Position numbers and translations under genes: made by a program. This document shows, piece after piece, positions 7,212 through 42,733 of a DNA stretch of 64,000 bases (the first letter of the stretch is position 1; each line of letters opens with the position of its first letter). The stretch is from a virus: positions 124,001 through 188,000 of the IMG/VR virus record IMGVR_UViG_3300038463_000730; one strand, written 5' to 3'. A model generated the notes under the pieces. It worked only from the letters and a program-made list of their open reading frames with translations. It was not told where the DNA came from and searched no databases.

Positions 7212-9416
7212 TTACTCTCCCGTCACGTCTCGGGCGACATCACCCTCGTTACGGCGAGGCTCGCCAACGTTCGTAACCGTGCTGGTATTGACGAATTGGT
7301 AAGTCAATTCAGTGTTCGCAACCGATACAGCTGTTCCAACGATGCTTACCGTACTGATGAAATCATTGTTATAGGCAACCTGTAACGTTCCGCCACCGGA
7401 ATCCGTACTAGTAATGTTAGCGTTGAAGAACGCCGAGCCATCATAGGTGAATGGCCCGATGACTCCGAACGTGATCTCTGGAGCCAGTTTGGCCGCAATC
7501 AGTGTAGCGACGTCGGTTGGAATACCGTCGCAAAGGTTTGACCCGTTTGCATCGTTCAATGTAACAGTCACGACGATCGGCAATGTTGTGAACTGCACAA
7601 TCGTACTCTCAACAAATACGCTCGATGTTGCCGATACACCAGCGTCCACCGCAAGATTGATCACGTTACTGCAATCAGCAAGCACCCGATTCAAACATAC
7701 GTTCGTGCTGGCCTGGAATACTGCAATCGATGCTGGATTGATATTGGTACGCATCGTTGTCAATGCGTTGTTTAAACATGCGACCGCGCCAGGGTTCGGT
7801 ACACCGTTCGGTGGTGGACTGGTCGTATTACCTGCCGCTCCGGCGCCTGTTCCGGTAATGTTCGGTAGCGCGTTGGTCAGTTCTGTAATTTGAGCAGCCG
7901 TTACCTTCGGTCCATAGATCGAGTTGATCGTGTTCTTGGTCAACGCTACATCAGGCATACACCCGACCGTGATCAATGTTTCAGCAACCAAGATTGGATA
8001 GTTGACTGAGAACGTGTAGGTAACGTTGGAGAACACAACTGGATTGTCAGGAGCATTCGCATCAACGATTTCGATCGGGTTATGAATCAACGAATTTAGA
8101 GTTGCCTGATTGCCAGCGATAGTGATCTTCGTAATACCGTCATCCTCGAAAGCCTGTCCACCGGTCAAGTACAGCACACCGTTGGTTGGTCCGACCGGTT
8201 GTCCGTTCCAACCTGTAGCCTGGGTTGGAGGAGTCTTCGTAACGATGCAATTGTTAATTTGGATGAAACGTGCTCCGGTATACCCATCACTATCAGGCGG
8301 TACCAACGGTAACGGTGTATAAGTGAATTGAGTAGGGTTGTACAGCATACGAAGGTTAATCGTATAAGGGGCCTTACCTGGGTTCGTCCCGGCATCGTAT
8401 GTCTGACCGGCAGGAAAGAACGTAAATCCTGCTGGAGCATCGATAGCTGTCGTGATGTTGTAGAATGCGTTCGTGCCAGTCAGGGTAGCGTCATAGAACT
8501 GCCAGCTCTCTTGGCGAACGGCGCTTTGCTGAGCAAAGATACTTGCAAATCCTGGTGGGAACAATGCGATGGTCGATGCCGATACTTCCAGTCCGGCGTC
8601 ATTCAAATACTGGAGTGTTCCGGTCGTCGCACCGGCCGGTGGCCCGCCGTTCTTAATGAATGCCGGGCATACATCCGGAGTACAACACTGGCTATTCACT
8701 CCTGCCTGATCCGAACACGGAGGTATCGGGAACGATAGCTTCAAGATATCAACGATAACCTGGAGCAACAGTGCAATGACCTGGAGAACGGCAAACAAGT
8801 TGCTGAAGTAGCAAAGGAGCGAGCCGATCTTTCGAAGAGCCGTAAGTGCTGACCTGGTATCCTGGCGAGCAATAATCTTTTGCAATAGAAACACGTTCTT
8901 TAGCAATTGAAGAATGATTCGGAGGATTTCTTGAATAATATACTTGACCAAAGCAATGATTAGCTTTATCAATGATATTATCATCAAGATGATAGCGAAG
9001 ATCGGGAACAACGCCAAGAAGTCCGGGATACACTGTGTGAATAGCTTCGAGATTGCGGGGCCGATCTTGAATGGGCTTATCAATGCACACAATACCTCAA
9101 GGATACAGAGGATCATGTTCAGAATCGGGAGGATGAACTTGTACATCGAAAGAAACGGCGTCAACACATCCAATAGCTTTAGGATCGGAGCAATTAGTTT
9201 CTTATCGAGATCGGGATTCAGGTTCGGAGTATACTTCCCTCCTGGTAATAGCAGCGAGATCGCGTTAATCAGTGCTAGAATATCTTCCGGAAAGCCTGCC
9301 GGGATAGGTAATCCGGGGATATTGATGTTTGGGAATGTGAATGACGGAAATCCAGGCAAAGAAGGGCCCGGAGTAGAAGGCATATTTACGGTGTTATTAC
9401 TAGGATCACACGGCAT
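7212..9416 (-). CDS. Baseplate-region protein with very hydrophobic N-terminal third
   Basis: A 734-residue protein. Residues 1-60 are rich in Pro and Gly (PSTPGPSLPGFPSF). Residues of about 75-235 are dominated by Ile, Leu, Phe and Val in several long stretches (for example FAIILMIISLIKLIIALVKYI) that would score as multiple membrane helices. A Cys-rich linker follows (CSDQAGVNSQCCTPDVC), and then about 480 residues of beta-rich, Thr- and Asn-rich virion-type sequence. Such a membrane-like segment inside a baseplate gene cluster is odd. It may bury itself in the baseplate or insert into the host envelope at injection. The start codon lies within the last codons of the HNH gene, and the Shine-Dalgarno (GGAG, 6 bases before ATG) is inside that gene's coding end. 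Confidence 0.82.
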   Translation of the reverse strand: MPCDPSNNTVNMPSTPGPSLPGFPSFTFPNINIPGLPIPAGFPEDILALINAISLLLPGGKYTPNLNPDLDKKLIAPILKLLDVLTPFLSMYKFILPILNMILCILEVLCALISPFKIGPAISKLFTQCIPDFLALFPIFAIILMIISLIKLIIALVKYIIQEILRIILQLLKNVFLLQKIIARQDTRSALTALRKIGSLLCYFSNLFAVLQVIALLLQVIVDILKLSFPIPPCSDQAGVNSQCCTPDVCPAFIKNGGPPAGATTGTLQYLNDAGLEVSASTIALFPPGFASIFAQQSAVRQESWQFYDATLTGTNAFYNITTAIDAPAGFTFFPAGQTYDAGTNPGKAPYTINLRMLYNPTQFTYTPLPLVPPDSDGYTGARFIQINNCIVTKTPPTQATGWNGQPVGPTNGVLYLTGGQAFEDDGITKITIAGNQATLNSLIHNPIEIVDANAPDNPVVFSNVTYTFSVNYPILVAETLITVGCMPDVALTKNTINSIYGPKVTAAQITELTNALPNITGTGAGAAGNTTSPPPNGVPNPGAVACLNNALTTMRTNINPASIAVFQASTNVCLNRVLADCSNVINLAVDAGVSATSSVFVESTIVQFTTLPIVVTVTLNDANGSNLCDGIPTDVATLIAAKLAPEITFGVIGPFTYDGSAFFNANITSTDSGGGTLQVAYNNDFISTVSIVGTAVSVANTELTYQFVNTSTVTNVGEPRRNEGDVARDVTGE

Positions 9417-10006: not shown

Positions 10007-12055
10007 TTACAAGATCGAGCTACCGCTACGCTGAACAACTCGCAATGCATTTGTATCATTTGAGTAGAATACAATTTCCTCTGCATCGATACATACTTGC
10101 CCACCAGCTTTTAACATCAAATCTTGACCAGCTACCATTGAAATATTAGTCGGTGTCAGGAATGTTAATCCGAACTGATCTACTCGAACAACTGCAAATT
10201 CACCTGTCTGCTGATAGATTCGGAAGTCTACCGTGCCGGGACGCATGGCCAAATTAGCTCCCTTACTCACAAACCTTGGATCCGAGATATTATTCGTCAT
10301 CGGACCTGACGGAGCCATTCCAGCATCCGGTCCTCCTATTGTTACGAGCAAATCTCCAGTCAACGACAATCCTACGCTGATCCCGTTCAAATCACGCCCG
10401 ATTTGACCAAGTAGCGATCCCTGCGTATCGAGCCAGATTGACTGTTTATCAATCGTATTGGCACCGACATTCATTTCGATCATTCCGTCGAATGTCAATT
10501 GACCTGAACGCCCACCGGCATTCGCACTTGTACCAGACACATTGATAGCTGTGCTAACAAACGTTGTAGGATACGTGATCGTACTGATCTGTGTGTTGAC
10601 AGGCTGATACTCATAGGTGACCGGGCTACGTTGCGCCGCGCATATTTGCGTGATGTCATGATAGATCGTTCCATGCTTGATCGGCTGGTTAGAAAGGCGA
10701 TCCATCGGTGTCGCGAACCCGGTTGTATTGTCCGGGTCATTGATCGAGATCGATCCACCATTGAACGCAATCGTGTCGAGATACAAGTCACGACGTTGGA
10801 ATCGGTTCTCTGAAGGCTGACCGTCGAACGTAAACTGATTCACATCATCGCTGTTCTGCACAGCTGAGATCGTGCTGGAGTTTGTGGCCCGTACGGTCAA
10901 CGGAATGTTACCTTTTTCGCTCGATGCCGGAACGTTGAATTTGAACTGTCCCTCTTTATCTACATCGAAAAAGAACTGACTACGATCCCTAGCGAACCCT
11001 TTGTTTGTCGTGATGTCGGGTAGCGGTGGAAGAGTCGGGTTCTTTGGCTGGTTGCCCTGTGAATCGGGCGGGTTGCCTTTACGTGCATTGATCTCGAAGT
11101 GATACGCGATGCTCTTGCGCTCAGCCTCACGGATGCGAACGTAGGCATCTTCTTTGTCCGTATTAGTGATAAACGATAGGTTCTTTTCTTTACCGGCTGG
11201 AAGAATGTTCCGATTTAGATCAAGGATGTTGCCATAGATATCGACTACCGTTCCCTTGACCGTCTCCATCAAGTAGTTCGGCTCGAACTGGGTCAAGCTG
11301 AGAAGATCAGTTCGTGCTTCACGACGATTGTAGAAATACTCGTCCTCTGGCAACTGACCGTTCTGTATGATTTGAATTTCTTGGGCGTCGGTAGAGAAGA
11401 AGGTTGAGTGAGCGAACTCGTACACCAACTCGCGCTTCTCAACGAACTGTGGGTTCCGCACAGCCGAACTGCTTGTCGTCAAGCTCGGAATCGAACTCGG
11501 ATCAAAACAGATCTCTTTCAAGTCATCGTCGAACTCGTGCCCATCACGACGAACAGAGAAGTCATTAAGGTTCGGGAACATGTCACGACGAACAATCCCA
11601 TCGACCTGAATCGAGGCATCGTTGAATGAGTAGTTCCCGCCAAAGTTGTTTGACAGGATACCGCGCTTCGCATCGACGCGCAGTGAGTTTACCTGGTCAC
11701 CGATCGTTGTGTATGTATCTGGGTCAAGCCTGACCGTGTTGTACTGATCACTCGATACAATCAGCTCATCACCATCAAACGAGATGGTTTGGTACGGACT
11801 TAGTAAGATGGCAATGATGTAGTACAACCCACCGTCACCCTGGAGCACCAAGACAGGCGTCCCCTCTTGCATCTGACCACCGATGAAATGGCCATTCGCA
11901 CCGTTGTACGCAGGGTAGTAACTTGCTTTAACTTTGACACCGGTCGTGTCGAGCGAAACCATCACCTGCGAACTTGAAACGATACTCTGCACCGTGCCCT
12001 TCGTGGCAATTCCCGGTACCTTGTTGATTATCTTTTGTTGTTGCGGTGCGTTCAT
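10007..12055 (-). CDS. Baseplate spike / hub protein with N-terminal OB-fold
   Basis: A 682-residue protein translationally coupled to the hub gene (TAATG overlap). Residues of about 15-100 form an OB-fold pattern like gp5/gpV spikes: a strand with GTVQSIVSSSQVMVSLD, a compatibility strand, then EGTPVLVLQGDGGLYYIIAIL. The extreme C-terminus (SMVAGQDLMLKAGGQVCIDA) has the short alternating repeats of beta-prism spike domains. No lysozyme domain is evident between them. The central part is long and polar, with a Pro-rich section. By analogy it sits on the tail axis below the hub and pierces the host surface. Placement directly after the hub gene fits. Confidence is high for a spike-class protein and moderate for exact architecture. 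Confidence 0.8.
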   Translation of the reverse strand: MNAPQQQKIINKVPGIATKGTVQSIVSSSQVMVSLDTTGVKVKASYYPAYNGANGHFIGGQMQEGTPVLVLQGDGGLYYIIAILLSPYQTISFDGDELIVSSDQYNTVRLDPDTYTTIGDQVNSLRVDAKRGILSNNFGGNYSFNDASIQVDGIVRRDMFPNLNDFSVRRDGHEFDDDLKEICFDPSSIPSLTTSSSAVRNPQFVEKRELVYEFAHSTFFSTDAQEIQIIQNGQLPEDEYFYNRREARTDLLSLTQFEPNYLMETVKGTVVDIYGNILDLNRNILPAGKEKNLSFITNTDKEDAYVRIREAERKSIAYHFEINARKGNPPDSQGNQPKNPTLPPLPDITTNKGFARDRSQFFFDVDKEGQFKFNVPASSEKGNIPLTVRATNSSTISAVQNSDDVNQFTFDGQPSENRFQRRDLYLDTIAFNGGSISINDPDNTTGFATPMDRLSNQPIKHGTIYHDITQICAAQRSPVTYEYQPVNTQISTITYPTTFVSTAINVSGTSANAGGRSGQLTFDGMIEMNVGANTIDKQSIWLDTQGSLLGQIGRDLNGISVGLSLTGDLLVTIGGPDAGMAPSGPMTNNISDPRFVSKGANLAMRPGTVDFRIYQQTGEFAVVRVDQFGLTFLTPTNISMVAGQDLMLKAGGQVCIDAEEIVFYSNDTNALRVVQRSGSSIL

Positions 12056-21978: not shown

Positions 21979-24795
21979 TTATCCAGAAATTGTTCCGACG
22001 CTTGTCTGAATGTAGATCCAATTTACTGGGTAAGTTGGCTGGACCTGCACTGAAATATCCCACTGACGTGGTTCAACCGGATCACGCTTGACAATCAAAC
22101 TTGCAAATTTTGTAATCAAACCCTGTCCGATGAACGATGTTAGGAGACCTTCTGCTCGCGATGTGAGCGATGCGAGCAACGATGGATCTTCTGGCAATCC
22201 AATGTATCCCTGGAAGCCTGTACGTAGAGACTTCGCAATCGCATCACGAATGAATACGATCGACATCTCCTGCTCTTCTGGGAAACCACTGTTCGTAGTT
22301 GTCAATCCCTGGACAATCAATCCACCGCCCGATACTGGCTGAGCCAAACAGATTCCCGCAGTAACCAACTCGCGTTGAATGACTGGAGAGTACATGTCCG
22401 TGCTCGCAATCGTGAATCCGGACAAAACCTTGTTTGTCAACGGCATCGCGACATTTGGTGTACCGGAGTAGAAACCACCGGCCGCAGCTGCCATATAGAA
22501 TCCGTGAACCTGATTGAGCGATGTTCCGGCCTGGACCGTGATCGTATCAGGATAGAAATATTGGCAACGGAATGTGTCTCCAAATGCTGCATCGACTGAG
22601 TAGTTAGCTAGGTCGGAGATATCACCGTTCAGAATCTCTGTTACAGTGTTACCATGGATACCTTCCAAAACTCCCAAGCTCTCAACTGCCGCAAGCGTAT
22701 TTCCAAGAACATTGTCTACTGTCAAACCGGAGATAGCTCCGATCAACGCGACACGCTCATGCTTGTTCAGAATGTTGCTCTGTGTAATACAGTGAACAAC
22801 CGTGTTCTGGAAAATTGCAGAAATGGTCTGGTTTGGTAGTGGCACGACGATATCAACATCGACCGTTTCCAAAGAAGCCAAAGCGTTAATCCAACCAGCA
22901 TCGTAGAACGAAGCATCGCGTGCATCGACAATCGTAACTCGTAGTCCGTAACCGTTCGGTACGACCGACTGGTTGATCAAGATCTCAGAAGACGTGCTGC
23001 TCGTATCGACCACCTCGAACGTAACCTGTGTCTCGTCGAGGAAGAACTTGCTAATCTTTACAACCGATGTAGACGTGAACGCCGTAATCAGGAATGTACC
23101 GTTGTTACCTGGGTTAGTTGCATCCTGAATCACGACGTACTTACCAACCATTCCGCTGGTAAATGGCGCAGATGGCGCAGTCAACGTTGCCGTTGTGTAT
23201 GTCCCGTTGACAAACGGTGGAGCATCCTGATCCTGAGCACCGCGTGTAATCGTTACCGTACCGGCTCCGAATGGAACCGTCGTACCACCTAGGGTAGCAA
23301 GTGTTGCGCCGTTGATGAGTGGGTTTGTTTCGTTAACAAAGTCACCCGCTGTGATATACAGTTCACCGTTCAGTACTCCACCGACGAAGTATGTTCCAAT
23401 GTTCGAAGCATTGGTTGTGTCGAAAATATTAACTTCGTTCAATCCGCCGTTGTAATCGAGCTGCGTGAACAAGAATGTTCCGCTGCTGAGAGTCGCGACA
23501 CCAGGAATGTTGATCGAAGCTTCGAGGACACCGTCCTGTGCGTACTTCGTTACTTCTGGCTCTTCGATAACGGTATAGTCGTATCCGAAATCCGTTGTAT
23601 CGAAAACAAACTGACTAACAGTTGGGTCAGATCCGACCGTGTAGTACTCTACCTTGTTCGGGATGATCTGCTTCTCAACACCCGTTGTCGGATTCGTTAC
23701 GAAGAAGTGAATGTCTGAATTGAAATCCGGCACAACTCCTGTTGGAAGTGGGAAAAGATAATCTTCAACATTTGTGCTCGTCGCAACAACCTTATCCGAA
23801 AGGATGTACGATGTACGACGTGGGAGTGCTGGCGCGGTCTGCAATGCCATAACGCCTGGTGTGCCGTTTGCGAATGCAAGCTGAGCACCCATCGATAGAG
23901 CATTGTTCACGACAATTGAATCGGAGATATTTGCAGCCGGAGTGACACTTGGCGTACCGCAGTTCGCCGTGACATCCTTCATGCTTGTATAGAAAACTGG
24001 ATTATTGATGTCCGAGACCGCGATATAGCTAGCAGTCAACGAATCATTCTTGATTAGTGAACCACTCTGTACCTGGACCGTAAACATATCACCCTGAATA
24101 AAATCAGGGGCGCTGAGTGTCATGTCCTGAGCAATAGCGAATGACAAGATTCCGTTCGTTACAACGACACCGTCTGACAACCAAACAATCGGGTTGCCGT
24201 AACCGTCTAGTGGTGATCCGCTGATCGTACCGAAAGCTAGGAACCGTGCAGTCTGTGGGACCGGGTTACCGTAACCGTCACGCTGAACCGAGATGCACTT
24301 GATCGACCAAGTTTCGGTCGGTGCGTTCGTGTCCACAACAGCTAAGTTCTGAAGCGTGCCTTCACCTACGTTGATTGCTCCGGCTTTGTAGAACAAGCCA
24401 CCCTGGTCAACCAGGTAAGCTTGCTGCAACTCAATCTCGCCCGTGGTCGGGTCGAGACGATAGTCGAATGCATCACTAAATGTCCCGGAGTCAATCTTCT
24501 CTTCGATACCCTTGAGAAGGACTCCATTACGAAACAACTGTGTGCGATTAGCAATCTCTGGAAAGAGACTCAATAAGAAGTGTCGTCCATCCGCTCCCGA
24601 TACTGATGTATAGGTTGCGTTTAGTCCATCGTTCCCACCGCCGATAGCTGATGAAACGATAACTTCACTTCTCTGACCTTCGCCCATTATTGCGACGATT
24701 CGTGCGCCACCAGGAACAGAAACGCCTGTTGTCAGTGTTTCTACCTCTACATAAACGCCTGGTGTTGCATTACTTGCGCCTGGTATGTTAGCCAT
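21979..24795 (-). CDS. Tail sheath protein
   Basis: A 938-residue protein. The N-terminus, NATPGVYVEVE (residues 9-19), and the C-terminal domain are typical of contractile sheaths. The latter runs from SLRTGFQGYIGLPEDPSLL through ITKFASLIVKRDPVEPRQWD to VQVQPTYPVNWIYIQTSVG and includes the conserved strands that interlock neighbouring subunits. It is longer than T4 gp18 (659 residues); the middle 500 residues are presumably surface-exposed domains. Two RDGYGNP/LDGYGNP motifs are present. AGAGGA precedes the ATG at a suitable distance. The 143-base region upstream (24796-24938) is the longest gap in this half of the module and may hold a promoter, but no clear one is visible. Confidence 0.93.
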   Translation of the reverse strand: MANIPGASNATPGVYVEVETLTTGVSVPGGARIVAIMGEGQRSEVIVSSAIGGGNDGLNATYTSVSGADGRHFLLSLFPEIANRTQLFRNGVLLKGIEEKIDSGTFSDAFDYRLDPTTGEIELQQAYLVDQGGLFYKAGAINVGEGTLQNLAVVDTNAPTETWSIKCISVQRDGYGNPVPQTARFLAFGTISGSPLDGYGNPIVWLSDGVVVTNGILSFAIAQDMTLSAPDFIQGDMFTVQVQSGSLIKNDSLTASYIAVSDINNPVFYTSMKDVTANCGTPSVTPAANISDSIVVNNALSMGAQLAFANGTPGVMALQTAPALPRRTSYILSDKVVATSTNVEDYLFPLPTGVVPDFNSDIHFFVTNPTTGVEKQIIPNKVEYYTVGSDPTVSQFVFDTTDFGYDYTVIEEPEVTKYAQDGVLEASINIPGVATLSSGTFLFTQLDYNGGLNEVNIFDTTNASNIGTYFVGGVLNGELYITAGDFVNETNPLINGATLATLGGTTVPFGAGTVTITRGAQDQDAPPFVNGTYTTATLTAPSAPFTSGMVGKYVVIQDATNPGNNGTFLITAFTSTSVVKISKFFLDETQVTFEVVDTSSTSSEILINQSVVPNGYGLRVTIVDARDASFYDAGWINALASLETVDVDIVVPLPNQTISAIFQNTVVHCITQSNILNKHERVALIGAISGLTVDNVLGNTLAAVESLGVLEGIHGNTVTEILNGDISDLANYSVDAAFGDTFRCQYFYPDTITVQAGTSLNQVHGFYMAAAAGGFYSGTPNVAMPLTNKVLSGFTIASTDMYSPVIQRELVTAGICLAQPVSGGGLIVQGLTTTNSGFPEEQEMSIVFIRDAIAKSLRTGFQGYIGLPEDPSLLASLTSRAEGLLTSFIGQGLITKFASLIVKRDPVEPRQWDISVQVQPTYPVNWIYIQTSVGTISG

Positions 24796-24938: not shown

Positions 24939-25760
24939 TCAAAGATTAGATAGTATTTCTACCAAAGTCTGTTGGTAATTGATTTCTAGTCCAGGAGCGA
25001 CCTGTGAATTGGGGTTCGATAGGTCCCTGAAGTCGATGACAAAATTAAGAACTTCCAATACGTTCCGGATCGGGATATTACGTCTCCATTCCGAACGATA
25101 CGTAATAGACACAGTCTGCTTGAATAGCTTGTCGTTACGATCTTCGGTTTCCGTGCCAGCCCCCGCCGATACACCCTTAACGAAGAAACCTGCATTTTGT
25201 AGGTTTCCACGTTCAACGTCCTCGAACAAAATCGTAACCAGTTCGATCAGATCATCCCGAGATCGGAGACTTCGAGTCATGATATCGATCGTAATCGTGC
25301 CTTCGTAGCCTCCAGCATAGATAAACGACTGTGGAACCTTAAATGTCTTAATGTTCCCGAAGTTGTCTTTGTATACGTCCCAGTCCCATTGAATACTTGA
25401 CCGCTCGTTATTGAAAGATAGCGGTACGAACCTGGCTCCACCGTGACGAACGATGATCGCCGGGTAGAACACAACGTCGTAGCGATAGCTCTCGCCTATG
25501 AAGAGACGTGTCGAACGATCGTCGTGGTAGCCAGCATCCTGAGGAAGATCGGTTTGATCAGGAGTCTTAGGGAAGCCGTACTCGTCGTAGACGAAATGGT
25601 AGAATGAATCCTTATTAAAGAACTCTCGTAATGTCGCGACGACGATTTCCTTCGGGAACACAATCATGCTGTTCTGCATGATGTAGTTCAACCCAGGAAG
25701 ATCCGAACGATAGAAGTTATTTGTGGGGCACATCCTTATTTGATGCAAGAAAAGTAGCAT
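24939..25760 (-). CDS. Probable tail completion / terminator protein
   Basis: A 273-residue soluble protein immediately upstream of the sheath gene. The core, with TITIDIMTRSLRSRDDLIEL, a VERGNLQNAGFFVKGVSAG segment, NDKLFKQTVSITYRSEWRR and IPIRNVLEVLNFVIDF, looks like an alpha/beta protein of the tail terminator type (gp3/gp15-like), a role fitting its position. The start is uncertain: ATG 25760 lies in a 9-bp stem (25751-25759 with 25783-25791) and has no clear Shine-Dalgarno, while ATG 25733 has an AAGG directly adjoining it. The upstream neighbour is a plus-strand lipoprotein gene, so this gene begins a new transcription unit. Confidence 0.7.
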   Translation of the reverse strand: MLLFLHQIRMCPTNNFYRSDLPGLNYIMQNSMIVFPKEIVVATLREFFNKDSFYHFVYDEYGFPKTPDQTDLPQDAGYHDDRSTRLFIGESYRYDVVFYPAIIVRHGGARFVPLSFNNERSSIQWDWDVYKDNFGNIKTFKVPQSFIYAGGYEGTITIDIMTRSLRSRDDLIELVTILFEDVERGNLQNAGFFVKGVSAGAGTETEDRNDKLFKQTVSITYRSEWRRNIPIRNVLEVLNFVIDFRDLSNPNSQVAPGLEINYQQTLVEILSNL

Positions 25761-25839: not shown

Positions 25840-25869
25840 TTGACATGTCGGAAAGTCGATCTACTCTAT
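25840..25869 (+). promoter_or_regulatory. Putative sigma70-type promoter of the lipoprotein moron
   Basis: A perfect -35 consensus TTGACA (25840-25845) is followed after 16-18 bases by a weak -10 (TACTCT or CTCTAT, 25862-25869). It lies about 55 bases upstream of the plus-strand lipoprotein ATG. An independent host-type promoter is what a moron expressed from a prophage or early in infection would need. The -10 match is poor, so this is a candidate only. Confidence 0.5.
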
Positions 25870-25922
25870 GACGACGACCTCGAAACTGACCAAGCTATTC
25901 AACCAAGGACAGGGAGCTAGTC

Positions 25923-26597
25923 ATGCGACATGTAGCGAAATTCACTGTGATCTCGTGCCTTCTGAGCGGAATCGGGTGCGGCGGCACTCCTCAGACCACG
26001 GAAGTCGTCGTAAACAACCCCGGTTCCAGTGGCGGAACGGATGGCGGCTCTGGCTCCGGCTCTGGCTCCAGCTCAGGCGGCTCCGGCTCTTCTAGTGGCT
26101 CGGGGTCGGGGTCAGGCTCGGGCTCGTCGAGCGGCTCTTCCAGCGGTGGAGGGTCTGGTTCCAGCTCGGGCGGAAGCGAAGATGCAGGCGTTGACGCAGC
26201 CTGCCAAGGTCAGTTCGAATGTGGAGCGGCCGATACCAAATGTGGCACGTTCACTGACAACTGCGGCAACCCGGTCGTGTGCTCGTGTCAGGACACAACC
26301 TTCACGTGCGGAGCACCTGGGATCGTTGTGAACGATGCCGGAGAAACAACGGGTATTGCAACGAGCCCGACCCAGTGCGGGCTTGATTGCACCCAACATT
26401 TCGGGGCCGGTGGAGTCTGCCCAGGTCTAAGCTTACCGAACGCCGGAACGTCGTACTACTGCAACGACGGGCCGTACTACCTGACGTTGACGTTTACCCA
26501 GCGCTATCCGAATTGTAGCTACTACTCTTCGACGAGCCAATTCGTCGAGCACGACGCAGGAGTCCCGAGCGGACAAGCCGTGTTGTGCTGCGAATGA
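25923..26597 (+). CDS. Secreted Cys-rich lipoprotein, host-type moron
   Basis: A 224-residue plus-strand gene in a minus-strand late region, with AGGGAG 6 bases before its ATG. A short signal peptide (MRHVAKFTVISCLLSGIGCGG) leads to a Cys at residue 19 or, with a more canonical VISC box, residue 12. Residues of about 35-85 are a pure Gly/Ser linker. The rest carries about 14 Cys, including an ECGAADTKCGTFTDNCGNP block spaced like surface lipoproteins of Myxococcota (Polyangia). The coding sequence is visibly richer in G+C than its neighbours and contains GGCTCN tandem repeats. It ends one base before the fibre gene's stop on the other strand. The likely role is lysogenic or infected-cell surface modification such as superinfection exclusion; this is inference. 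Transfer from a host is likely. Confidence 0.82.
   Translation: MRHVAKFTVISCLLSGIGCGGTPQTTEVVVNNPGSSGGTDGGSGSGSGSSSGGSGSSSGSGSGSGSGSSSGSSSGGGSGSSSGGSEDAGVDAACQGQFECGAADTKCGTFTDNCGNPVVCSCQDTTFTCGAPGIVVNDAGETTGIATSPTQCGLDCTQHFGAGGVCPGLSLPNAGTSYYCNDGPYYLTLTFTQRYPNCSYYSSTSQFVEHDAGVPSGQAVLCCE
26043..26165 (+). repeat. Gly/Ser-coding GGCTCN tandem repeat
   Basis: Short tandem hexamer-like units (GGCTCT, GGCTCC, GGCTCA and variants) encode the Gly/Ser linker of the lipoprotein. Slippage would change linker length in multiples of two residues. Confidence 0.75.
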
Positions 26598-29500
26598 TTA
26601 CATCCGTGTTGGATCTAGATTGTAGATCGACACGTTGATAATCGGCGCTGCCCAAGAAGCGTAAGCCAATCCGGACGGATCAGGAGACTGAATCTGAAGG
26701 ATATAGCTAAAACTCGAATCGTCCAGCACAAGGCCGCCTGGTATGGTGCATACATATGTACCAACGCTCGGTGTTGTCCCGCTCCAAGAGAACGTGGCTC
26801 CTTGTGCTGTATTGGTCGCTCCAGGGCCATTTATGGATAGAGTAATCGGCGTAGATGCTCCCTGGTTATTCGGGTACGCATAGAGCGAAATAGACGGACC
26901 AGCGGTCCATGGTTTTCCAGGATGTCCTAGTGCGTAGGTAATGTTAAAGCTATTCATCGTAGATCCATTCGGGAATCTCGAAATAGCAAGCTGCATTTGC
27001 CCTGCGCTACCTGCCGTACCGTCAAGCGTTGAGAACAAAGTCGTTCCCGGTCCTCCAGCGCCAAGGTTTCCGCTGTAACCGTAGGTGACGGAAGCACCAC
27101 CGACATAACCGCCCCAGATAGCTGGCTGGCATATGTTCCGCACAACCGGAACAATCAACGGTGGAATGTTTTCAGAGTAACTGTGCAGGTTGGCAAGATT
27201 TGAACGAATCAACGATGCACTGTTGCTGTAGACAACCAATGTATAGTTGGAAGCGCCATCTACCGTTTCTGAATCGAAGAAGTTGCCAGTAACACTTACA
27301 AGTCCTGACGAAGACGTAACATTAATGTAAGACGCGATTACATTCGTGTAACGATAGAATTGGTTACCCGTAATCGTGCATTGACGTCCGTTGACTCCGT
27401 AATATGTGATGAACGTTCCGGTGCCGGATTGGTTGAGGCAACCGTCGAACGTGTTATCCGTGATCGACCCACCCGGAGCCATGAATACACAGTTGTCGTA
27501 ATAGTAAATCGTTTGTGGCGTTAGAGTGTTGTCCGTGTGAGAACCGACGAAGAACATGTTTCCACTGATTTTCACGTTTCCAACGTCTCCGCCCGAACCT
27601 GAGTTCGCATCGCAACGAATAGCCGAATTCGATGGAGTTCCACGATCCTCTAGAGCGTCTACGTTTCCTATGTAGTTCCCAAGGAACGTCGTCGAGTAAG
27701 CCAGGAATCGATTATTCAATATCTGGAGTGTCGTGGCGTGCGTCGAGAGCGTTGTCGTATCATTATTGCCGATTTGCGCCTGAACCCAGTTAACCGTGTT
27801 CTCGCGAATGATAGTCGAGCCGATCCAGTACGTTCCGTCGCCACCAGTCTGGTAGCGGTGAAGACCGTCCTCGCAGGCCGTAGCAATCAAGTGACACGAG
27901 TTACCTGCGATGATCAGCGTCTCGTCCTTGTCACGAGTTAGCTGGCTCAAGTTCGGTGTGTTGCGTGGATAATCGAGCTGGTGCCAGTACAGAATCGCAC
28001 CGCACACGTTATTTTCGATGTGAACGTTGATCATTGCGGTAGATGATCCGGGAGACGAACCGTTTCGCTGTGCGCCCAAGAAAATCATCTGATTCTTGTC
28101 ACAATAGTTTTTATTGATGTGACAGTTGATAAGTTTCGGAGCTTCGTTGCCGCTCGTATACCCGGCCGGGTGACCAGTTAGAAGCGCAAACGCCGGAGCC
28201 AAATCATCTACCGATGTCGTAGATATGAACTGATTATTCTCGATGTAGAAGTTCGACAGAAATGTGTCAGCCGCAGCATTAGCTTGAACGGCGTAGAACG
28301 AGATTACTGGGTAACGATTGACCGTTGTCGTTGTAAACTTACAGTTACGAATATAGATGTTCTGAATGGTTTGGTCTGAGAACAAACCAGCGATTGCTCC
28401 ATACGTAGCCGAGCTAACAGTGGGAGGAGGTGTCTGAGGCGATGATGGACCGGTGCAGTTGACTAGGTAAGACGACGACCACGTTGCATCATTTGTTGCA
28501 TCGTAATTGTACGTGATGTTACATCCGTCGAACGTTGTGTTGCTTTTAACATTGAAACCAGTCTGACCGTTCACAGTTATTGTGCAACCCTTGAAGCTTG
28601 CAAAAGACCCGGCAGCAAAAGATAAGAACGCTCCAGGGGCAAGGCTCATCGTGCAGCCATTGAACGCCATCGTCATGCCAGAAGATATCGTGATTGTGTT
28701 TACAGCTGCAAAGATAATGTTGCAATTATTGAACGTTACGTTGCCACCGTTGGTAAGCATCGCCAACGTGGTACCGAAATTAAACGTACAGTTATTGAAC
28801 GTTACTTGCCCACCTTCAAAGAAGTTGATGCCGTACCCGTCATTGAAAGTACAGTTATTGAATGTTGATACGCTTCCTGCCTGGAAAGCTAGACCGGTGA
28901 ATCCGCCACCAAGGAATGTAAACGTTATGTTTTCAAAATTGGCAACTGAAAACATATCAAATAGTGAGTTTGCCTGAAAAACAAAGGCCCCAGCTCCATC
29001 ACCAATAAAATCAACTGGTTGAGGATAACTCAGTGTCAAAGCGCCAAGAATTGAATTGCTGCCTTTTACTTTGATGCGAGATTCGTAAGACGAATTGTAT
29101 TTGAGATACGCATTAACCACTGCAAACTGTGAGAAGTTCCCAGTGCTCGGGTCCGCGCTCAACACTGGGGAGATGTTCTGATCCGAGTTCCGAATGAATT
29201 TACGAACGTCGGTCACAAACGCCGATGCGCCCTGCTGATTGAATAGATAGAGTGGTGTCAAATCTTTGCGTGTATTGAGCAAAGATGAGAATGTTGTTGA
29301 ATCAACCGGGTACGATACAAGTGTCGTTGGATTGTAAAGAGTAAGCAATCGACCAGGATTGTTTATCGCATTGACCGTAGTGTCGTAGTCCGTAATAGGA
29401 ATGGTCTGAATCTCTGCTTTTTGGTTAACACAGATAACCCAGTTCACACCGTTGATTGGCGTTCCGCCGTTGTTGTCTTGAACAGCCGGGATATTAACAG

Positions 29501-32474
29501 TGAAGTTGTTGATTTCCTTAACAACTCCATTGACCAATACTGCTCCGCCCTGGAATGTTGCCGCGAGCGCCGTATGGCTATTTAGAGCAAGTCCACGAAG
29601 GACACCATTCTGACTTACGTTAGCTGGCGCAGCCGCAATGTACTGTAGAGCCGAGGTCGATAGTTCATTCTCGGTCACACCACCAAACTGGCGTCCATCT
29701 TGGATAAACGTAATTTGCTGATTTGAGCCGTTTAGTTGTCCGGCGCCGAGGTAGAAGACCTGACTGTCGAGACGCAACGATGGGAACAAATCGATGTTCA
29801 ACTGAACTGGCACAGACGGTGGATTGAACGAGATCGGAACTGTCAATGCATCGTAATCTGCCAGATTTACGATCATATCGATGTAATCAATACCCGTTTC
29901 ATCGTAGAAACGAACAACTTCGCCCTGTTTCCCGGTGATCGTTGCACCAAGATTGGAAGAAATCGTGTTGCACAGATTGCCCGAGAAGATACCGGTTGTT
30001 GCATTCCATGCTGTTAGATTAAATAGGATTGATGTTGATGAATTGGTTAGATTATCAATGTTGTTGGAATAGCCACGCAATTTCGGCCCAACGCCAATAA
30101 TGTTGAATCGAACTAGGTTGGCATCACCGGTTGTCAAATTGACACGCGCACGCTCTGAACTGAACGTATGTCCGGTCGAATCAACGAAGAACTCGAAGTA
30201 TCGTTTGAACGAGCTGCCATCATTTGTCGCATTGACAAGGTTCAACGCATCAAACCCAATAGAGTTCTCAGAGTAGTATATGGCTACATTGATTCCAGTA
30301 GATGAAACCGATACCGGAGTCCCAACAGCGTAGATGCAGCTGTAAACTTCGATTGTTGTTGACATGATAACCGAATCACATGTTGTGAACGATATACTGT
30401 CAATAATAAAACGTCCGTAATCAGTGTCGTTATACGCCGGAGAACTAAACGGTAGAAGCGGCTGTATCAAAATAGTTTTGCCAGGTGTCAAACCATATTT
30501 AGATAGGTCCTGGTTAACATTGTATGTTGCTCGGACCGTGATACCTGGCGTGATCGTCTTTGAAATGATCGAGCCCATCCAGTAACCGTCGCCGTTTACG
30601 TCAAAATAACCATCCGCTGGTTCAATCGTATTGAGGCTAGATTTGGCCTGACCATTTACGTAGTAATTCTTGTTTACTAGCGGTAAGAATATCTGCGTAG
30701 GAAACTGCGCTTGCTGAATAGATGCAAAACTGCTCTGATACGGTGGGCTTGCTACGTTAGCATTGCTTTTCCCTAATCCTAATGGATCAGGTCCGCCTAG
30801 AGCGTCACCGATTACGTTATTTGAGAACGAACCGGCACCAAGAACACCTCCGGTAGAAACCGTTCCGTTAATAACTGAGAAACCAGCTCCATTCGTTGCG
30901 TCGGTCATCGCAATACCGAAGTTTCCGTCGTGCTGGTATGCTATGAAACGATAGTTGTAGCCAGGAGCAGCGAATGCATCGTTTGTTGCGGCAATGATCG
31001 TATCGATCGTATAGGCACCGGGAGTCGTGCCCTGGTTTCCGGTCACGTCGATTGGTGGCATGGTCTGCACACGGTCAGTCGGGTTACCAGTTGGATAGAC
31101 AGCTAGATACAAATTGTAGTTTGTTGGTCCGAACTCAGAGGCGGTAAAATCAATTCCTAATGCACTGGCCGCGCGTGGATCCGATACCGTTACGCTTGGC
31201 AATGCGTCGAACGTGTTGTTCGTCTGAGCCAATGCCATAACGCCTGACGTTGCCTGCACTGCAATTGGCGCATCGATACGAGCAACGGCTGTAGACGAAT
31301 CAATGATGTTTCGACCGTTGATACGCACGTAGTAGGAACGGTTAGGTGGAGAGTAACCGTCGTAAGATGCTCGTGCTGACTCAATGATGTATTGAGCCTG
31401 AACTGTTCCATAGTTGACCGTTATGATCTGTCCTGGTTTGACAGAAGAAAACATCGAGTCAAAATTGAATGTCGGATCCTGTGGCGGAATGAACTGAATA
31501 ACGTCGTCACCGTAGGTATTGTTGTCTACCGGGCTACCAGCGTTACCACCTGAACCATTATCGTGCAAGAACGTCTTGCATAATGTGAATGGAACGATCT
31601 CCTGGCTTGAACCGGTGTATCCGTCATCAGTCGAATTGAGCAACGTTCCACGACATGTGCGCGGAATGTTGTTTCCGTGTTCATCCTGTTGGTGGATCGT
31701 CAATCCGATGAAACTTGTTGTATCAACGAAGTTAGCGAACTCTTGAACGTTCTCAACTGTTTTCGGAATGACTACGAAGTTTGTCGAGTTTAGCGAGATA
31801 CCGGCACCGACGTGTCCGTATTGGTTTGGAATGTTGCCAGTGTGAACATTGCCATCGGCAAGTTCGTGGCTAACCAAGTCCTGATTGATGTTGAAAAGGA
31901 ACAAGGCGAGATTCGATCCGCGCAATAGACCATTGCGATCGGTCGGAGCGTGGCCACCTGGCCATGTGAAGCTCGGGTCTCGTGGATCGGTAGGTGCAGC
32001 ATTGATATCGATGTGAGAAACAACGTGGCGACCCGATTCGCCACCTGAGAGCGGCCCGACACCGGTAATGTGCTTGATGAAATCTAGTTGGGTTGTGCTG
32101 GCAAGCGTCTGAACAGCATTGATCTGTGTTCCGAGTACCTGGATATCGTTGTAGAGCGACTGTGTTGAGTAAGCCAGCGCGATCTTCGATTCCTGAATTC
32201 CGGCACCGGGAGCAATCTGTGCATCAGTAAACTGCGTTACACTGATTGCGTGCAATATAGCAGATGGCCTTAGATAACCGTACGGATCGATCGATACTTC
32301 TAGGCGAGCTGCGATTGATCCAACCGCTCCCGAACCTCCGATTCCGATTTCGTTTTCGATGGCAAAAATAGCCGATCGACATTGATCAATAGCCAACCCT
32401 CCGAGTTGTGTGACGTCATCGTCTACTCGAATAATTGTCGAATCATCATCTAGAGAAAATGGGTAATTGCTCAT
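26598..32474 (-). CDS. Giant tail fibre/tailspike with parallel beta-helix
   Basis: A 1958-residue protein, the largest in the window. The N-terminus has a fibre-anchor segment (AILHAISVTQFTDAQIAPG) found in other tail fibres. The middle is a Thr/Asn/Gly-rich shaft. At about residues 1180-1320, repeated Phe-Asn-Asn-Cys-Thr-Phe coils (NNCTFND, FNNCTFN, FNNCNI, FNGCTM, FKGCTI) give a right-handed beta-helix of pectate-lyase type. A second set of ITGNQFY/SVTGNFFD turns lies at 1600-1750. The last 150 residues look like a jelly-roll receptor-binding domain. It is convergent with the lipoprotein gene, their stops adjacent. It may bind and degrade a surface polysaccharide, but no catalytic residues can be named from sequence. 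Confidence 0.85.
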   Translation of the reverse strand: MSNYPFSLDDDSTIIRVDDDVTQLGGLAIDQCRSAIFAIENEIGIGGSGAVGSIAARLEVSIDPYGYLRPSAILHAISVTQFTDAQIAPGAGIQESKIALAYSTQSLYNDIQVLGTQINAVQTLASTTQLDFIKHITGVGPLSGGESGRHVVSHIDINAAPTDPRDPSFTWPGGHAPTDRNGLLRGSNLALFLFNINQDLVSHELADGNVHTGNIPNQYGHVGAGISLNSTNFVVIPKTVENVQEFANFVDTTSFIGLTIHQQDEHGNNIPRTCRGTLLNSTDDGYTGSSQEIVPFTLCKTFLHDNGSGGNAGSPVDNNTYGDDVIQFIPPQDPTFNFDSMFSSVKPGQIITVNYGTVQAQYIIESARASYDGYSPPNRSYYVRINGRNIIDSSTAVARIDAPIAVQATSGVMALAQTNNTFDALPSVTVSDPRAASALGIDFTASEFGPTNYNLYLAVYPTGNPTDRVQTMPPIDVTGNQGTTPGAYTIDTIIAATNDAFAAPGYNYRFIAYQHDGNFGIAMTDATNGAGFSVINGTVSTGGVLGAGSFSNNVIGDALGGPDPLGLGKSNANVASPPYQSSFASIQQAQFPTQIFLPLVNKNYYVNGQAKSSLNTIEPADGYFDVNGDGYWMGSIISKTITPGITVRATYNVNQDLSKYGLTPGKTILIQPLLPFSSPAYNDTDYGRFIIDSISFTTCDSVIMSTTIEVYSCIYAVGTPVSVSSTGINVAIYYSENSIGFDALNLVNATNDGSSFKRYFEFFVDSTGHTFSSERARVNLTTGDANLVRFNIIGVGPKLRGYSNNIDNLTNSSTSILFNLTAWNATTGIFSGNLCNTISSNLGATITGKQGEVVRFYDETGIDYIDMIVNLADYDALTVPISFNPPSVPVQLNIDLFPSLRLDSQVFYLGAGQLNGSNQQITFIQDGRQFGGVTENELSTSALQYIAAAPANVSQNGVLRGLALNSHTALAATFQGGAVLVNGVVKEINNFTVNIPAVQDNNGGTPINGVNWVICVNQKAEIQTIPITDYDTTVNAINNPGRLLTLYNPTTLVSYPVDSTTFSSLLNTRKDLTPLYLFNQQGASAFVTDVRKFIRNSDQNISPVLSADPSTGNFSQFAVVNAYLKYNSSYESRIKVKGSNSILGALTLSYPQPVDFIGDGAGAFVFQANSLFDMFSVANFENITFTFLGGGFTGLAFQAGSVSTFNNCTFNDGYGINFFEGGQVTFNNCTFNFGTTLAMLTNGGNVTFNNCNIIFAAVNTITISSGMTMAFNGCTMSLAPGAFLSFAAGSFASFKGCTITVNGQTGFNVKSNTTFDGCNITYNYDATNDATWSSSYLVNCTGPSSPQTPPPTVSSATYGAIAGLFSDQTIQNIYIRNCKFTTTTVNRYPVISFYAVQANAAADTFLSNFYIENNQFISTTSVDDLAPAFALLTGHPAGYTSGNEAPKLINCHINKNYCDKNQMIFLGAQRNGSSPGSSTAMINVHIENNVCGAILYWHQLDYPRNTPNLSQLTRDKDETLIIAGNSCHLIATACEDGLHRYQTGGDGTYWIGSTIIRENTVNWVQAQIGNNDTTTLSTHATTLQILNNRFLAYSTTFLGNYIGNVDALEDRGTPSNSAIRCDANSGSGGDVGNVKISGNMFFVGSHTDNTLTPQTIYYYDNCVFMAPGGSITDNTFDGCLNQSGTGTFITYYGVNGRQCTITGNQFYRYTNVIASYINVTSSSGLVSVTGNFFDSETVDGASNYTLVVYSNSASLIRSNLANLHSYSENIPPLIVPVVRNICQPAIWGGYVGGASVTYGYSGNLGAGGPGTTLFSTLDGTAGSAGQMQLAISRFPNGSTMNSFNITYALGHPGKPWTAGPSISLYAYPNNQGASTPITLSINGPGATNTAQGATFSWSGTTPSVGTYVCTIPGGLVLDDSSFSYILQIQSPDPSGLAYASWAAPIINVSIYNLDPTRM
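28570..28880 (-). repeat. Beta-helix coil repeats within the giant fibre gene
   Basis: Degenerate repeats of roughly 20-25 codons share a core encoding Phe-Asn-Asn-Cys-Thr/Asn. At base level the + strand shows recurrent acagttattgaacgtta-like words. They encode successive rungs of the beta-helix with stacked Asn and Cys ladders. Confidence 0.7.
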
Positions 32475-33319: not shown

Positions 33320-34588
33320 TTAACTAGCAGTGATTATTACTATACCAGGTAACCCGAGGTCTCCGTGGTAACCTGAGCCACCGGGTTGATTATTGCTTCC
33401 GGCAAAGCTTGCACAGCCTCCGCCTCCACCAGGGCCACCAATGCCACCGGCGCCGTAACCTGTTTGAGTCGCCGTGCCATCAACCCACATTCCAATCGCT
33501 TGGAATGAAAGTGGAGCGTAATTTGGCGTTAGCCCTGGGTTCGTTCCACCATCCGAGCCGCCAAGCCCTAGAAACTGACCGCTATGAGAATTGATGTATG
33601 GCATTTTTATTGGGCTGCCAGTTGAGTAAACGTTGAAATCTAAGCCAACCATATACAACGGAATCGGATTGAGTAATGACATGACGCCACCACCGCCACC
33701 GCCATTGTAACTAAAATGATTTCCTGTAGATGTGTATGCACCGGTCACAGAAGAACTGGTGTATGACAAACTCGCATCAATAACCGTGTTACCAGTGATC
33801 CATGTGGGCGCGCTGCCAAAAGGACCGTAATATTGATCAACAGTCGGATAAGGAATGATTGATGCCGATACGTCAGTATAGATCTTGTAAATATAGTACA
33901 GTCCTCCGATGAATCCACCGGCCGTTGAGAATGTTGGTGATGCAATCTGAATAGGAGTCGCGTGATTATTCTCGCCACCAGTACCACCACCAGAACCCAT
34001 TCCTCCTAATCCGGCTTGTGAACCATCACTTCCGGTCGGATCAGCTGGGTAAGGAGCTGGGTAGCTAAAATCGAATCGTTGACTAAATCCCATTGTGTTG
34101 GCGCTCGCTCCACCAGATCCGACAGCGTCGAATCCTGAGCCACCGCCAGGACCACCGACACCATTCGATCCTCCTGTAGCAAATAACTCTAGCCCGTTAG
34201 GGAACGTAAATGAAGAGCCTATCCCGGATGTTCCGTTACCTCCAATACCTCCACCACCTAGCCCAGTAACGTTACCAAATGCTCCAGCAGCTCCGCCCGT
34301 GCCACCGCCACCGACGTTAATTTGGTACGAAACACCCGGTGTGACAGGTATCTTCTTGGCATTAACCAAGTTTCCACTTACCCCACAACCACCAGACGCA
34401 CCGCCGCCGCCACCATTCGAATAAAAATAGTTTCCGGCTCCGCCTCCACCACCGCCGCCTCCACCACCGCCGCCACCGATCAACATGATATCAACGTAAT
34501 TGATATCAATAGGACAAGTCCATTGATACGTTGTGTACGATCCTGACGTATAGTTGAAAATATATTTCTGAGATGGATTGTAAGACAT
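33320..34588 (-). CDS. Glycine-rich fibre/adhesin protein A
   Basis: A 422-residue protein that opens with an aromatic strand segment (YIFNYTSGSYTTYQWTCPID) followed by DIMLIGG and a run of 13 Gly. Further Gly-rich segments alternate with Ser/Asn turns, and the C-terminus is GYHGDLGLPGIVIITAS. It is a tandem paralogue of the next gene, sharing the aromatic opening, Gly run, PYPADPTGSDGSQAGL block and C-terminus. The Gly-rich organisation recalls the distal adhesins (gp38 type) of T-even-like phages, in which polyglycine II helices display variable loops. Receptor binding is inferred. Confidence 0.8.
   Translation of the reverse strand: MSYNPSQKYIFNYTSGSYTTYQWTCPIDINYVDIMLIGGGGGGGGGGGGGAGNYFYSNGGGGGASGGCGVSGNLVNAKKIPVTPGVSYQINVGGGGTGGAAGAFGNVTGLGGGGIGGNGTSGIGSSFTFPNGLELFATGGSNGVGGPGGGSGFDAVGSGGASANTMGFSQRFDFSYPAPYPADPTGSDGSQAGLGGMGSGGGTGGENNHATPIQIASPTFSTAGGFIGGLYYIYKIYTDVSASIIPYPTVDQYYGPFGSAPTWITGNTVIDASLSYTSSSVTGAYTSTGNHFSYNGGGGGGVMSLLNPIPLYMVGLDFNVYSTGSPIKMPYINSHSGQFLGLGGSDGGTNPGLTPNYAPLSFQAIGMWVDGTATQTGYGAGGIGGPGGGGGCASFAGSNNQPGGSGYHGDLGLPGIVIITAS
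34441..34478 (-). repeat. Polyglycine microsatellite in fibre protein A
   Basis: Tandem GGN codons (minus strand GGCGGTGGTGGAGG and similar) encode the Gly run near residue 40. Replication slippage here would change length in whole codons and so adjust the adhesin without a frameshift. Confidence 0.75.
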
Positions 34589-41581: not shown

Positions 41582-42055
41582 ATGAAGAAGGTTCCCGAAT
41601 TTAACACGAGTGCTAGAGCGGTTTCGATCCCGGCTTCTGGCCCGGAGGCATTACCGGTAACGGAGGCCGCGTCGAATGAAGAGACGTTTTGGATAACGAA
41701 TATTTCGAACCGAAATGTTAGTTTGGGTGACCTTAACCTCACAGTAAAAGCTTACATGACGGTCAATTTACTTGATTCTCGGCACTATCATTTGACGTCT
41801 GCGCAGCTTCACAAGTCTGCCAAGAGCGGCTCGATATATGCTAAACGAAACATGATTTTCGTACGGCTTATACCGCCAGAGAAGAACAAGATCCAATCAA
41901 TTTTGACCCAAGAGAACTGGATACCGAGCCGCGCTCGTTCGGCTATCCCGACAATTCAGCCGAACTATGATGAACTGAATTTGTCAGATGAGGCTTTCGC
42001 TGAAGAAGCATCCGAATTAGTTGAGAAAGACCGTAAACCACTTATCTCAAAGTAA
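41582..42055 (+). CDS. Unrecognised plus-strand protein, first of a three-gene divergent cluster
   Basis: A 157-residue protein. After a 30-residue Ala/Pro/Ser-rich lead, a compact domain runs TFWITNISNRNVSLGDLNLT, a MTVNLLDSRHYHLTSAQL segment, then IYAKRNMIFVR. The last 40 residues are acidic and probably helical. I do not recognise the family; the sequence of short strands and a basic end looks like a small structural or adaptor module. Base composition matches the phage, unlike the lipoprotein gene. It is followed by two further plus-strand genes at short spacing. The ATG touches a 12-base palindrome. Confidence 0.72.
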   Translation: MKKVPEFNTSARAVSIPASGPEALPVTEAASNEETFWITNISNRNVSLGDLNLTVKAYMTVNLLDSRHYHLTSAQLHKSAKSGSIYAKRNMIFVRLIPPEKNKIQSILTQENWIPSRARSAIPTIQPNYDELNLSDEAFAEEASELVEKDRKPLISK

Positions 42056-42283: not shown

Positions 42284-42733
42284 ATGCCAGACTATCCAAG
42301 AAAGCCGCCAGTGCCGGGTCCAGGAGCAATCGTTCCTCAGCCTCGACAGTCACAATCGAATGAGTTCCCAACGCCTGCGGGCCAGGAGTTCGGGCTGCTT
42401 ACTGTCCAGGATGTGAATAACATCTTAGAGGTCAACCAAAAGGCATTGACAATCTACCTAGAAGTAGAGAAGCAGAACGAAGATATCATCGATCACCTTG
42501 AGCGTGAAAGTGAGAAGCTGGATAAACTTGATCTCGTGCTATCTGAGCTACGTGATATCAAGGTTAAACAGAACGAGATTATCAAAACACTATCTGATCA
42601 GGCCGATGCGATCGAAGAGATCCATTCAAAAACAGGCGATTTGGACAAGAATTTTTTCCGTCTAATCATCATCCTTGGTTCGGCCGGGATCGGTACGGTA
42701 ATCACCGTTATTCAAGCGATTCTGCACCACTGA
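42284..42733 (+). CDS. Coiled-coil protein with C-terminal membrane anchor
   Basis: A 149-residue protein. Residues 1-35 are Pro-rich, 45-115 form a continuous heptad-like coiled coil (NNILEVNQKALTIYLEVEKQ and LDLVLSELRDIKVKQNEI), and 125-146 form one hydrophobic helix (FFRLIIILGSAGIGTVITVI). This is a C-tail-anchored topology with a cytoplasmic coil. Candidates are a lysis accessory, a membrane-recruiting scaffold or a superinfection-exclusion factor; nothing decides between them. Its last 72 bases overlap the 3' end of the convergent minus-strand gene. Confidence 0.75.
   Translation: MPDYPRKPPVPGPGAIVPQPRQSQSNEFPTPAGQEFGLLTVQDVNNILEVNQKALTIYLEVEKQNEDIIDHLERESEKLDKLDLVLSELRDIKVKQNEIIKTLSDQADAIEEIHSKTGDLDKNFFRLIIILGSAGIGTVITVIQAILHH

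Follow-up and report, generated by a model that had tools for sequence, protein, structure and literature searches.

The locus raises the question of why a predicted lipoprotein gene should run against the late genes of a jumbo phage, in direct contact with the end of a giant tail-fibre gene, and of what its product does there. The DNA analysed here, called the window, is a 64-kb stretch of a virus record with a length of 434,688 bp, in which it takes up positions 124001-188000. The lipoprotein gene occupies 25923-26597 of the plus strand, from ATG 25923 to TGA 26597, and encodes 224 aa. The product begins with a predicted type II signal peptide, MRHVAKFTVISCLLSGIG (25923-25979), in which Cys19 is the lipobox cysteine, and continues into a Gly/Ser-rich linker at aa 34-86 (26022-26180), which has counterparts of the same kind in related phages. 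A DAGVDA stretch (26181-26198), found by qualitative comparison also in the Polyangiaceae lipoprotein L047, links this linker to a Myxococcota-type CG...D.CG cysteine unit at aa 100-133 (26220-26321). The rest, aa 134-224 (26322-26594), is a variable C-terminal disulfide-rich domain, which ends in LCCE and whose cysteines are conserved in an alignment of 11 phages. There are 16 cysteines in the protein. When all start-to-stop candidates of at least 60 aa in the window were screened with a PROSITE-type lipobox and a hydrophobicity test, 2 of 1,294 passed, namely this protein and an internal TTG start within the fibre gene. The ORF and the lipobox test thus bear out the 224-aa lipoprotein with Cys19 lipobox, Gly/Ser linker and Cys-rich end that the first-pass annotation had described, and the predicted signal peptide suggests that the protein is lipidated and displayed on the surface. 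The AlphaFold models were poor, with a pLDDT of 40.5 for the single protein and 56.4 with 11 sequences. Two more plus-strand ORFs with phage-typical codon usage were observed at 41582-42055 and 42284-42733, the latter coiled-coil in appearance, so the lipoprotein gene is not the sole plus-strand gene of the window.

The neighbours of the gene are encoded on the minus strand. The stop of the lipoprotein gene (26597, plus strand) lies directly beside that of the convergent fibre gene (26598-32474, 1,958 aa), and the stop-to-stop contact noted earlier is therefore exact to the base. The fibre protein has a right-handed beta-helix match, and its shaft is homologous in the relatives; strong alignment to them stops near aa 1100-1260. 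The diverged C-terminal part, approximately aa 1260-1958 (26601-28697, boundary approximate and taken from the alignment), is the presumed receptor-binding tip. On the other side of the site lies a neck/tail gene at 24939-25760, just upstream of the tail sheath gene (21979-24795; PHROG 2839 tail sheath, E=6.6e-15), which served as the query for relatives. These two genes have distant matches to gp177 and gp178 of Bacillus phage G, respectively, and the gp177-like gene was present in 74 of the 80 relatives listed. The flanks were first read as a giant fibre gene and a tail completion gene; the former holds, and the latter is plausible by position, as a gp177-like gene beside the sheath. Phage G likewise has a gp177-like gene followed by the sheath, but no lipoprotein gene is annotated in its tail-sheath region, and the two sheaths share no more than about 27% identity, over 16% of the length.

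Searches for homologues of the lipoprotein gave no match in Pfam, PHROGs, PDB, the annotated phages of INPHARED or plasmids, and NCBIfam and PADLOC added none. With single-sequence searches, the sole other copy was in IMGVR_UViG_3300034065_000057, whose identity over 16.7 kb marks it as a second assembly of the same phage. Relatives were collected by two tail-sheath-based scans of viral contigs, each of which gave at least 80 loci on contigs of up to 481 kb, and all of them are metagenomic contigs. One phage (L097) came to light when viral contigs were scanned for a pattern and then screened with a profile; it has 36% G+C, its sheath and gp177-like gene are 45% and 43% identical to those of the window, and its lipoprotein has the same architecture, site and orientation. 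Altogether, a lipoprotein gene occupies the site in at least 15 distinct jumbo-phage populations, always opposite to the sheath and late genes (window/L184, L097, L238, L241, L246, L252, L253, L263, L277 (=L278), L279/L281/L320, L288, L306, L307, L309, whose protein is identical to that of L146, and L315). The proteins have about 220-290 aa, with 8-21 cysteines in most members; that of L307 has an N-terminus which fails the positive-charge rule of the test, and its plan is unchanged. Pfam gave nothing for the relatives' lipoproteins except one sub-threshold match. A full-length HMM from eight phage relatives failed to recover the window protein, and family membership therefore rests on synteny, orientation, architecture, the cysteine unit and the cysteine alignment; an alignment of the short cysteine units was also tried as search query and was dropped as too variable. 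With regard to the proposed host derivation, for which the closest homologues had been named as decisive, the result is divided, since the relatives are phage genes, yet their predicted products are exported lipoproteins rather than structural components of the virion.

The site is without a lipoprotein gene in at least 46 of the relatives compared, and in many of them the fibre and gp177-like genes are only a few bases apart, which leaves no room for it. As most relatives do without it, the gene is dispensable. On the sheath tree, its presence and absence need 8 changes (mean after shuffling, 14.3), at least 6 of which are forced by well-supported branches. By this sequence-based reconstruction, it is an accessory gene that was gained or lost repeatedly and has long been resident in the clade. 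Some other arrangements were seen. The same tail-to-tail pair stands at a contig end in L131, where the rest of the site is absent. In L097, an inserted IS605 OrfB/TnpB-like gene (10150-11361, minus strand; Pfam OrfB_IS605 and Cas12f1-like_TNB) separates the promoter of the lipoprotein gene from the gp177-like gene. In L307, HAD-hydrolase-like and Hsp20-like ORFs, named by eye, lie at 7421-7915 and 8632-9000 (minus strand, opposite to the sheath), and the site there looks like an insertion hotspot. L315 has a second, different lipoprotein of 329 aa with a lipobox and a charged coiled-coil-like part (8029-9018, minus strand), upstream of the Cys-rich one and with its own promoter-like element. 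Finally, a Cys-rich lipoprotein of the same plan occurs in a different gene context in L087 (1847-2845; contig 3300024054_000269, 182 kb, 37% G+C), where the adjacent genes have the same orientation and a gene for an SNF2-type helicase is close by.

In the window, a candidate sigma70-type promoter lies at 25840-25867 (plus strand), with the -35 element TTGACA at 25840-25845, a 16-nt spacer and the -10 element TACTCT at 25862-25867, and a Shine-Dalgarno GGGAG (25912-25916) stands 6 nt 5' of the ATG. Alone this pair is unremarkable, as 21% of shuffles score equally, the window contains about 50 copies of TTGACA, and a promoter scanner run on the window did not place the pair among its predictions. 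The comparison with relatives gave a different picture. The pattern TTGACN-N15-18-TANNNT, within 140 nt upstream, is strictly present in 14 of 15 orthologous genes, against a background of about 1%. It was fixed after inspection of the first eight genes, where it was found in 8/8 (0/8 on the reverse strand; background 0.3-1.3% per window), so that the second set of seven is the fair test; there, with the start codon taken as the Met closest to the signal peptide, it was found in 6/7 (background 0.3-2.3%), and the seventh gene has a variant -10, TTGACA-17-TATAAG. A chance promoter was ruled out by this recurrence. The earlier proposal that the gene has its own TTGACA-type promoter, which was weak on the window sequence, is thereby upheld, and so is its description as a moron-like unit, a lipoprotein gene with its own promoter element that faces the late operon at a site without it in at least 46 relatives. 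A stem-loop with a T-run directly follows the lipoprotein gene in L246, L252, L253, L279 and L309; a sequence scan of the window found no evident terminator for it.

The gene was further supposed to be richer in G+C than its surroundings and to have been transferred recently from the host. The first point was confirmed, with a G+C of 0.607 against 0.476 for the window. The Gly/Ser linker explains part of this excess, but the Cys domain alone has a GC3s of 0.664, a value that none of 126 pieces of equal size from the phage's own genes reaches (mean 0.460, maximum 0.638), while its codon log-likelihood is near the phage's normal value. In the relatives, the GC3 of lipoprotein and sheath are close (for example 0.32/0.33, 0.39/0.37, 0.36/0.35 and 0.28/0.31), which indicates that the higher G+C comes mainly from Gly, Ser, Thr and Cys codons; GC3 is clearly raised only in the window (0.65 against 0.50 for the sheath). 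The GC3s of the Cys domain, together with the Myxococcota-style cysteine unit, speaks for a host gene recently acquired from a Myxococcota host, and with the GC3 excess of the window phage the cassette may have been exchanged recently there. Against such an acquisition stand the orthologous site and architecture in at least 14 other phage populations, the GC3 of the relatives near that of their sheaths, and the 379 and 318 bacterial genomes searched, in which no close homologue was found. Recent transfer is thus not borne out for what is a syntenic, hypervariable family of the clade; synteny has already largely refuted it, and we give it very little credence.

The cysteine unit nevertheless carries a signal of its own. 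A profile of the CG...D[GN]CG...CG.C unit, made from 27 examples in other proteins and run on 1,132 frames of the window, picked out the lipoprotein ORF with E = 2.5e-5 (next-best window ORF, 0.44), and a profile of the longer unit gave E = 9.6e-5. The DNA pattern of CG...D[GN]CG was found in 49 of 141 Myxococcota genomes, often in many copies per genome, compared with 8 of 150 genomes of Pseudomonadota (the phylum of Pseudoroseomonas) and 6 of 148 of Bacteroidota (the phylum of a Muribaculaceae bacterium), each with one copy; the unit is not exclusive to Myxococcota, as it also occurs in one member of the Falkowbacteria, one of the Diapherotrites and another bacterial MAG. The Cys-rich module had been called Myxococcota-like in style at first sight, and these frequencies and the profile match agree with it. 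Many of the Myxococcota proteins that contain the unit are lipoproteins with a disordered linker (the lipobox test was passed by 14 of 25 examined), and they share with the window protein the lipobox, the low-complexity linker, the CG...D.CG unit and occasionally DAGVDA. The host proteins, however, often have many units or a catalytic or beta-propeller-like part, whereas no phage protein has more than one unit, beside a variable domain ending in CC. The Myxococcota-restricted protein search that had been proposed was not productive, as it gave no convincing full-length homologue in 379 genomes, and the C-terminal 102 aa found nothing in 318 genomes of the class, in a search that is weak since it had no positive control. 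Likewise, 20 kb of the window gave no CRISPR-spacer-like or prophage-like match in the 379 Myxococcota genomes; the DNA matches were low-complexity only, in the linker and at 34434-34478. Since 26 of 150 Pseudomonadota genomes likewise have matches to the linker DNA (E <= 1e-5), linker similarity was not used as host evidence. The segment 34434-34478, within the gene 33320-34588 (minus strand), has 40-bp matches of 89-95% identity in many Myxococcota genomes, which are probably a simple-repeat coincidence. Overall, the distribution of this one module makes Myxococcota a plausible host. Five IMG/VR contigs of high G+C (63-73%; L096, L133, L135, L165 and L167) with CG...D.CG lipoprotein-like ORFs, three of which (L133, L135, L167) have a ...CC stretch at or near the module end, could be prophages of Myxococcota or wrongly assigned bacterial DNA and were left out of the phage counts.

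The lipoprotein is hypervariable. Among the Cys domains of 11 phages, invariant or nearly invariant cysteines stand at no fewer than 12 positions, ending in CC, and little else is common; between L246 and L253, the sheath is 82% identical and the lipoprotein Cys domain 29%. The fibre varies in a similar place. In closer relatives its shaft has about 47-77% identity per 100 residues, and identity falls to 20-40% over the last 300-600 residues, at the end beside the lipoprotein gene, from which we infer that this end is the receptor-binding part. The two variations were caught together in L279 and L320, which are 98-100% identical over about 17 kb, save one block and a short indel in the fibre gene. 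The diverged block of about 0.8-0.9 kb (L279 7603-8493, L320 7680-8493) extends from about 200 codons before the fibre stop to about 80 codons into the lipoprotein gene. Within it, the fibre tips are about 22-28% identical; the lipoproteins are identical at aa 1-155, and the remainder keeps the cysteine pattern and little else. A third contig, L281, has the L279 allele. In this event the lipoprotein end and the fibre tip changed together, which lends substance to the link with receptor-binding genes that had been drawn from position. Since stop-to-stop convergence puts both C-terminal coding ends side by side, one exchange can replace both. By analogy, aa 134-224 of the window protein would be the counterpart of the exchanged domain. 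In seven further close pairs, none of which has the lipoprotein, the region compared contains no diverged block, so the coupled exchange is a single event, and the L279 and L320 contigs may come from one study series. The indel (L279 around 5880-5945, L320 5940-6000) splits the L279 fibre gene into two overlapping ORFs and may be a frameshift, phase variation or an assembly error.

On this evidence, we favour with moderate confidence a superinfection-exclusion lipoprotein of the receptor-blocking kind, matched to the phage's own fibre tip. The reading is supported by the lipobox, the fixed site in at least 15 populations, the promoter in 14 of 15, the hypervariability, the coupled exchange and the precedent of T5/BF23 and Ltp; it stands without a fold or family match in Pfam, PHROG, NCBIfam, PDB and INPHARED, and with structure models of low confidence. 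Against it speak the single exchange caught and the dispensability of the gene; moreover, physical linkage could by itself account for a lipoprotein end that moves when the fibre tip is swapped. The first of its two main rivals takes up this last point, namely that a surface lipoprotein with some other benefit, such as protection of the infected cell or conversion of the host surface, has its end swapped only through linkage to a hypervariable tip. That just one coupled exchange was found suits such hitch-hiking, as do the other inserts (HAD-like and Hsp20-like in L307, the transposase gene in L097), which mark a general insertion spot; but the lipoprotein is the recurrent occupant, in constant orientation beside the fibre end, and its C-terminal domain is hypervariable between phages with 82% identical sheaths, and we regard this explanation as rather improbable. 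According to the other main rival, the C-terminal domain is a putative decoy or receptor mimic, which binds the fibre tip of incoming phages instead of the receptor and was captured as a copy of a host Cys-rich surface lipoprotein serving as, or resembling, the phage receptor. The L279/L320 exchange fits it equally well, and the cysteine unit resembles host surface lipoproteins, which are numerous in Myxococcota. A decoy might, however, also capture the phage's own progeny, and neither the 318-genome class search nor the full-length search of 379 Myxococcota genomes found a close host homologue of the domain; it too seems unlikely to us. A part in lysis, as an outer-membrane spanin-like lipoprotein, would account for a phage-encoded lipoprotein with a lipobox. 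Yet no inner-membrane partner or other lysis gene was identified beside the gene, and a protein of 220-290 aa with a disulfide-rich hypervariable domain and its own promoter, absent from most relatives, hardly suits this role, which we consider most improbable.

The favoured reading, exclusion matched to the fibre tip, has precedents in other phages. In T5, llp adjoins the receptor-binding gene oad (PMC4728585), and in BF23 the same job is done by a cognate Hrs/Llp pair that has no sequence relationship to that of T5 (PMC4728585, PMC9586334). The Llp lipoproteins block the matching receptor, and receptor-binding protein and Llp form a functional module (PMC4728585, PMC9586334). As in Oad (pb5)-Llp and Hrs-Llp, the lipoprotein gene here stands beside the presumed receptor-binding gene, and the principle we propose is the same, a cognate module of recognition and exclusion that differs between related phages (PMC4728585, PMC9586334). 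There are differences as well. Llp is small and periplasmic, whereas the present proteins have about 220-290 aa, a long linker and, in most members, 8-21 cysteines; the genes converge stop to stop and their C-terminal ends are exchanged as one block, unlike in T5 and BF23, and the phages are of the jumbo contractile-tailed type. Two features of T5-type Llp/Cor proteins recur in the window and its relatives, a lipobox signal peptide and a gene beside a fibre of probable receptor-binding role; as no sequence relation to the Llp/Cor families was found in Pfam, PHROG, NCBIfam, PDB or INPHARED, the lipoprotein was not filed among them. Ltp of the Streptococcus thermophilus phage TP-J34 has a lipid anchor, a serine-rich spacer and an exclusion domain (PMC3952083), a plan of anchor, spacer and effector domain shared with the window protein, and is described as moron-like, exposed on the surface and acting in exclusion (PMC3952083). 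Ltp, however, belongs to temperate phages that infect Gram-positive hosts, and its effector is a repeat domain that acts when DNA is injected; this domain was not found in the window protein, in which Pfam recognised 0 families. By analogy, the present lipoproteins fit the working principle of T5, BF23 and Ltp, outside those families. A literature search of partial coverage found no cysteine-rich or exclusion lipoproteins of jumbo or huge phages.

In the mechanism that we propose, a host-type sigma70 promoter would drive the lipoprotein gene independently of the late genes, and the product would be exported and lipidated at Cys19. The long flexible linker would hold it away from the membrane, where the variable C-terminal disulfide-rich domain would engage the receptor used by the fibre tip, so that phages which arrive later with the same specificity, or progeny that run into debris, would fail to adsorb productively. 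Of all this, the sequences themselves show the anatomy, its conservation, the promoter element, the hypervariability and one coupled exchange, while exclusion, its molecular target and timing, exposure at the surface and a Myxococcota host are inferred. A single recombination would replace the fibre tip together with the specificity domain of the lipoprotein, and the shaft, promoter, signal peptide and linker would stay. More tentatively, and with limited confidence, we suggest that the fibre tip and the predicted exported lipoprotein are a two-gene specificity cassette, whose tail-to-tail C-terminal domains form one recombination unit, such that the specificity of attack and of self-exclusion may switch in a single event; the lipoprotein would then be a host Cys-rich surface lipoprotein adopted by the phage, possibly as a receptor mimic.

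If the exclusion reading is true, the marker set of lipobox, GGS linker, CG...D.CG and final CC would help to find more such genes where homology search fails, and the allele pairs of L279 and L320 would allow a direct test of the cognacy of tip and lipoprotein. Convergence would then explain in simple genetic terms why a gene is directed against the late operon, and the pairing of receptor binding and exclusion known from T5-like coliphages would extend, with apparently unrelated proteins, to a large clade of uncultivated jumbo phages.
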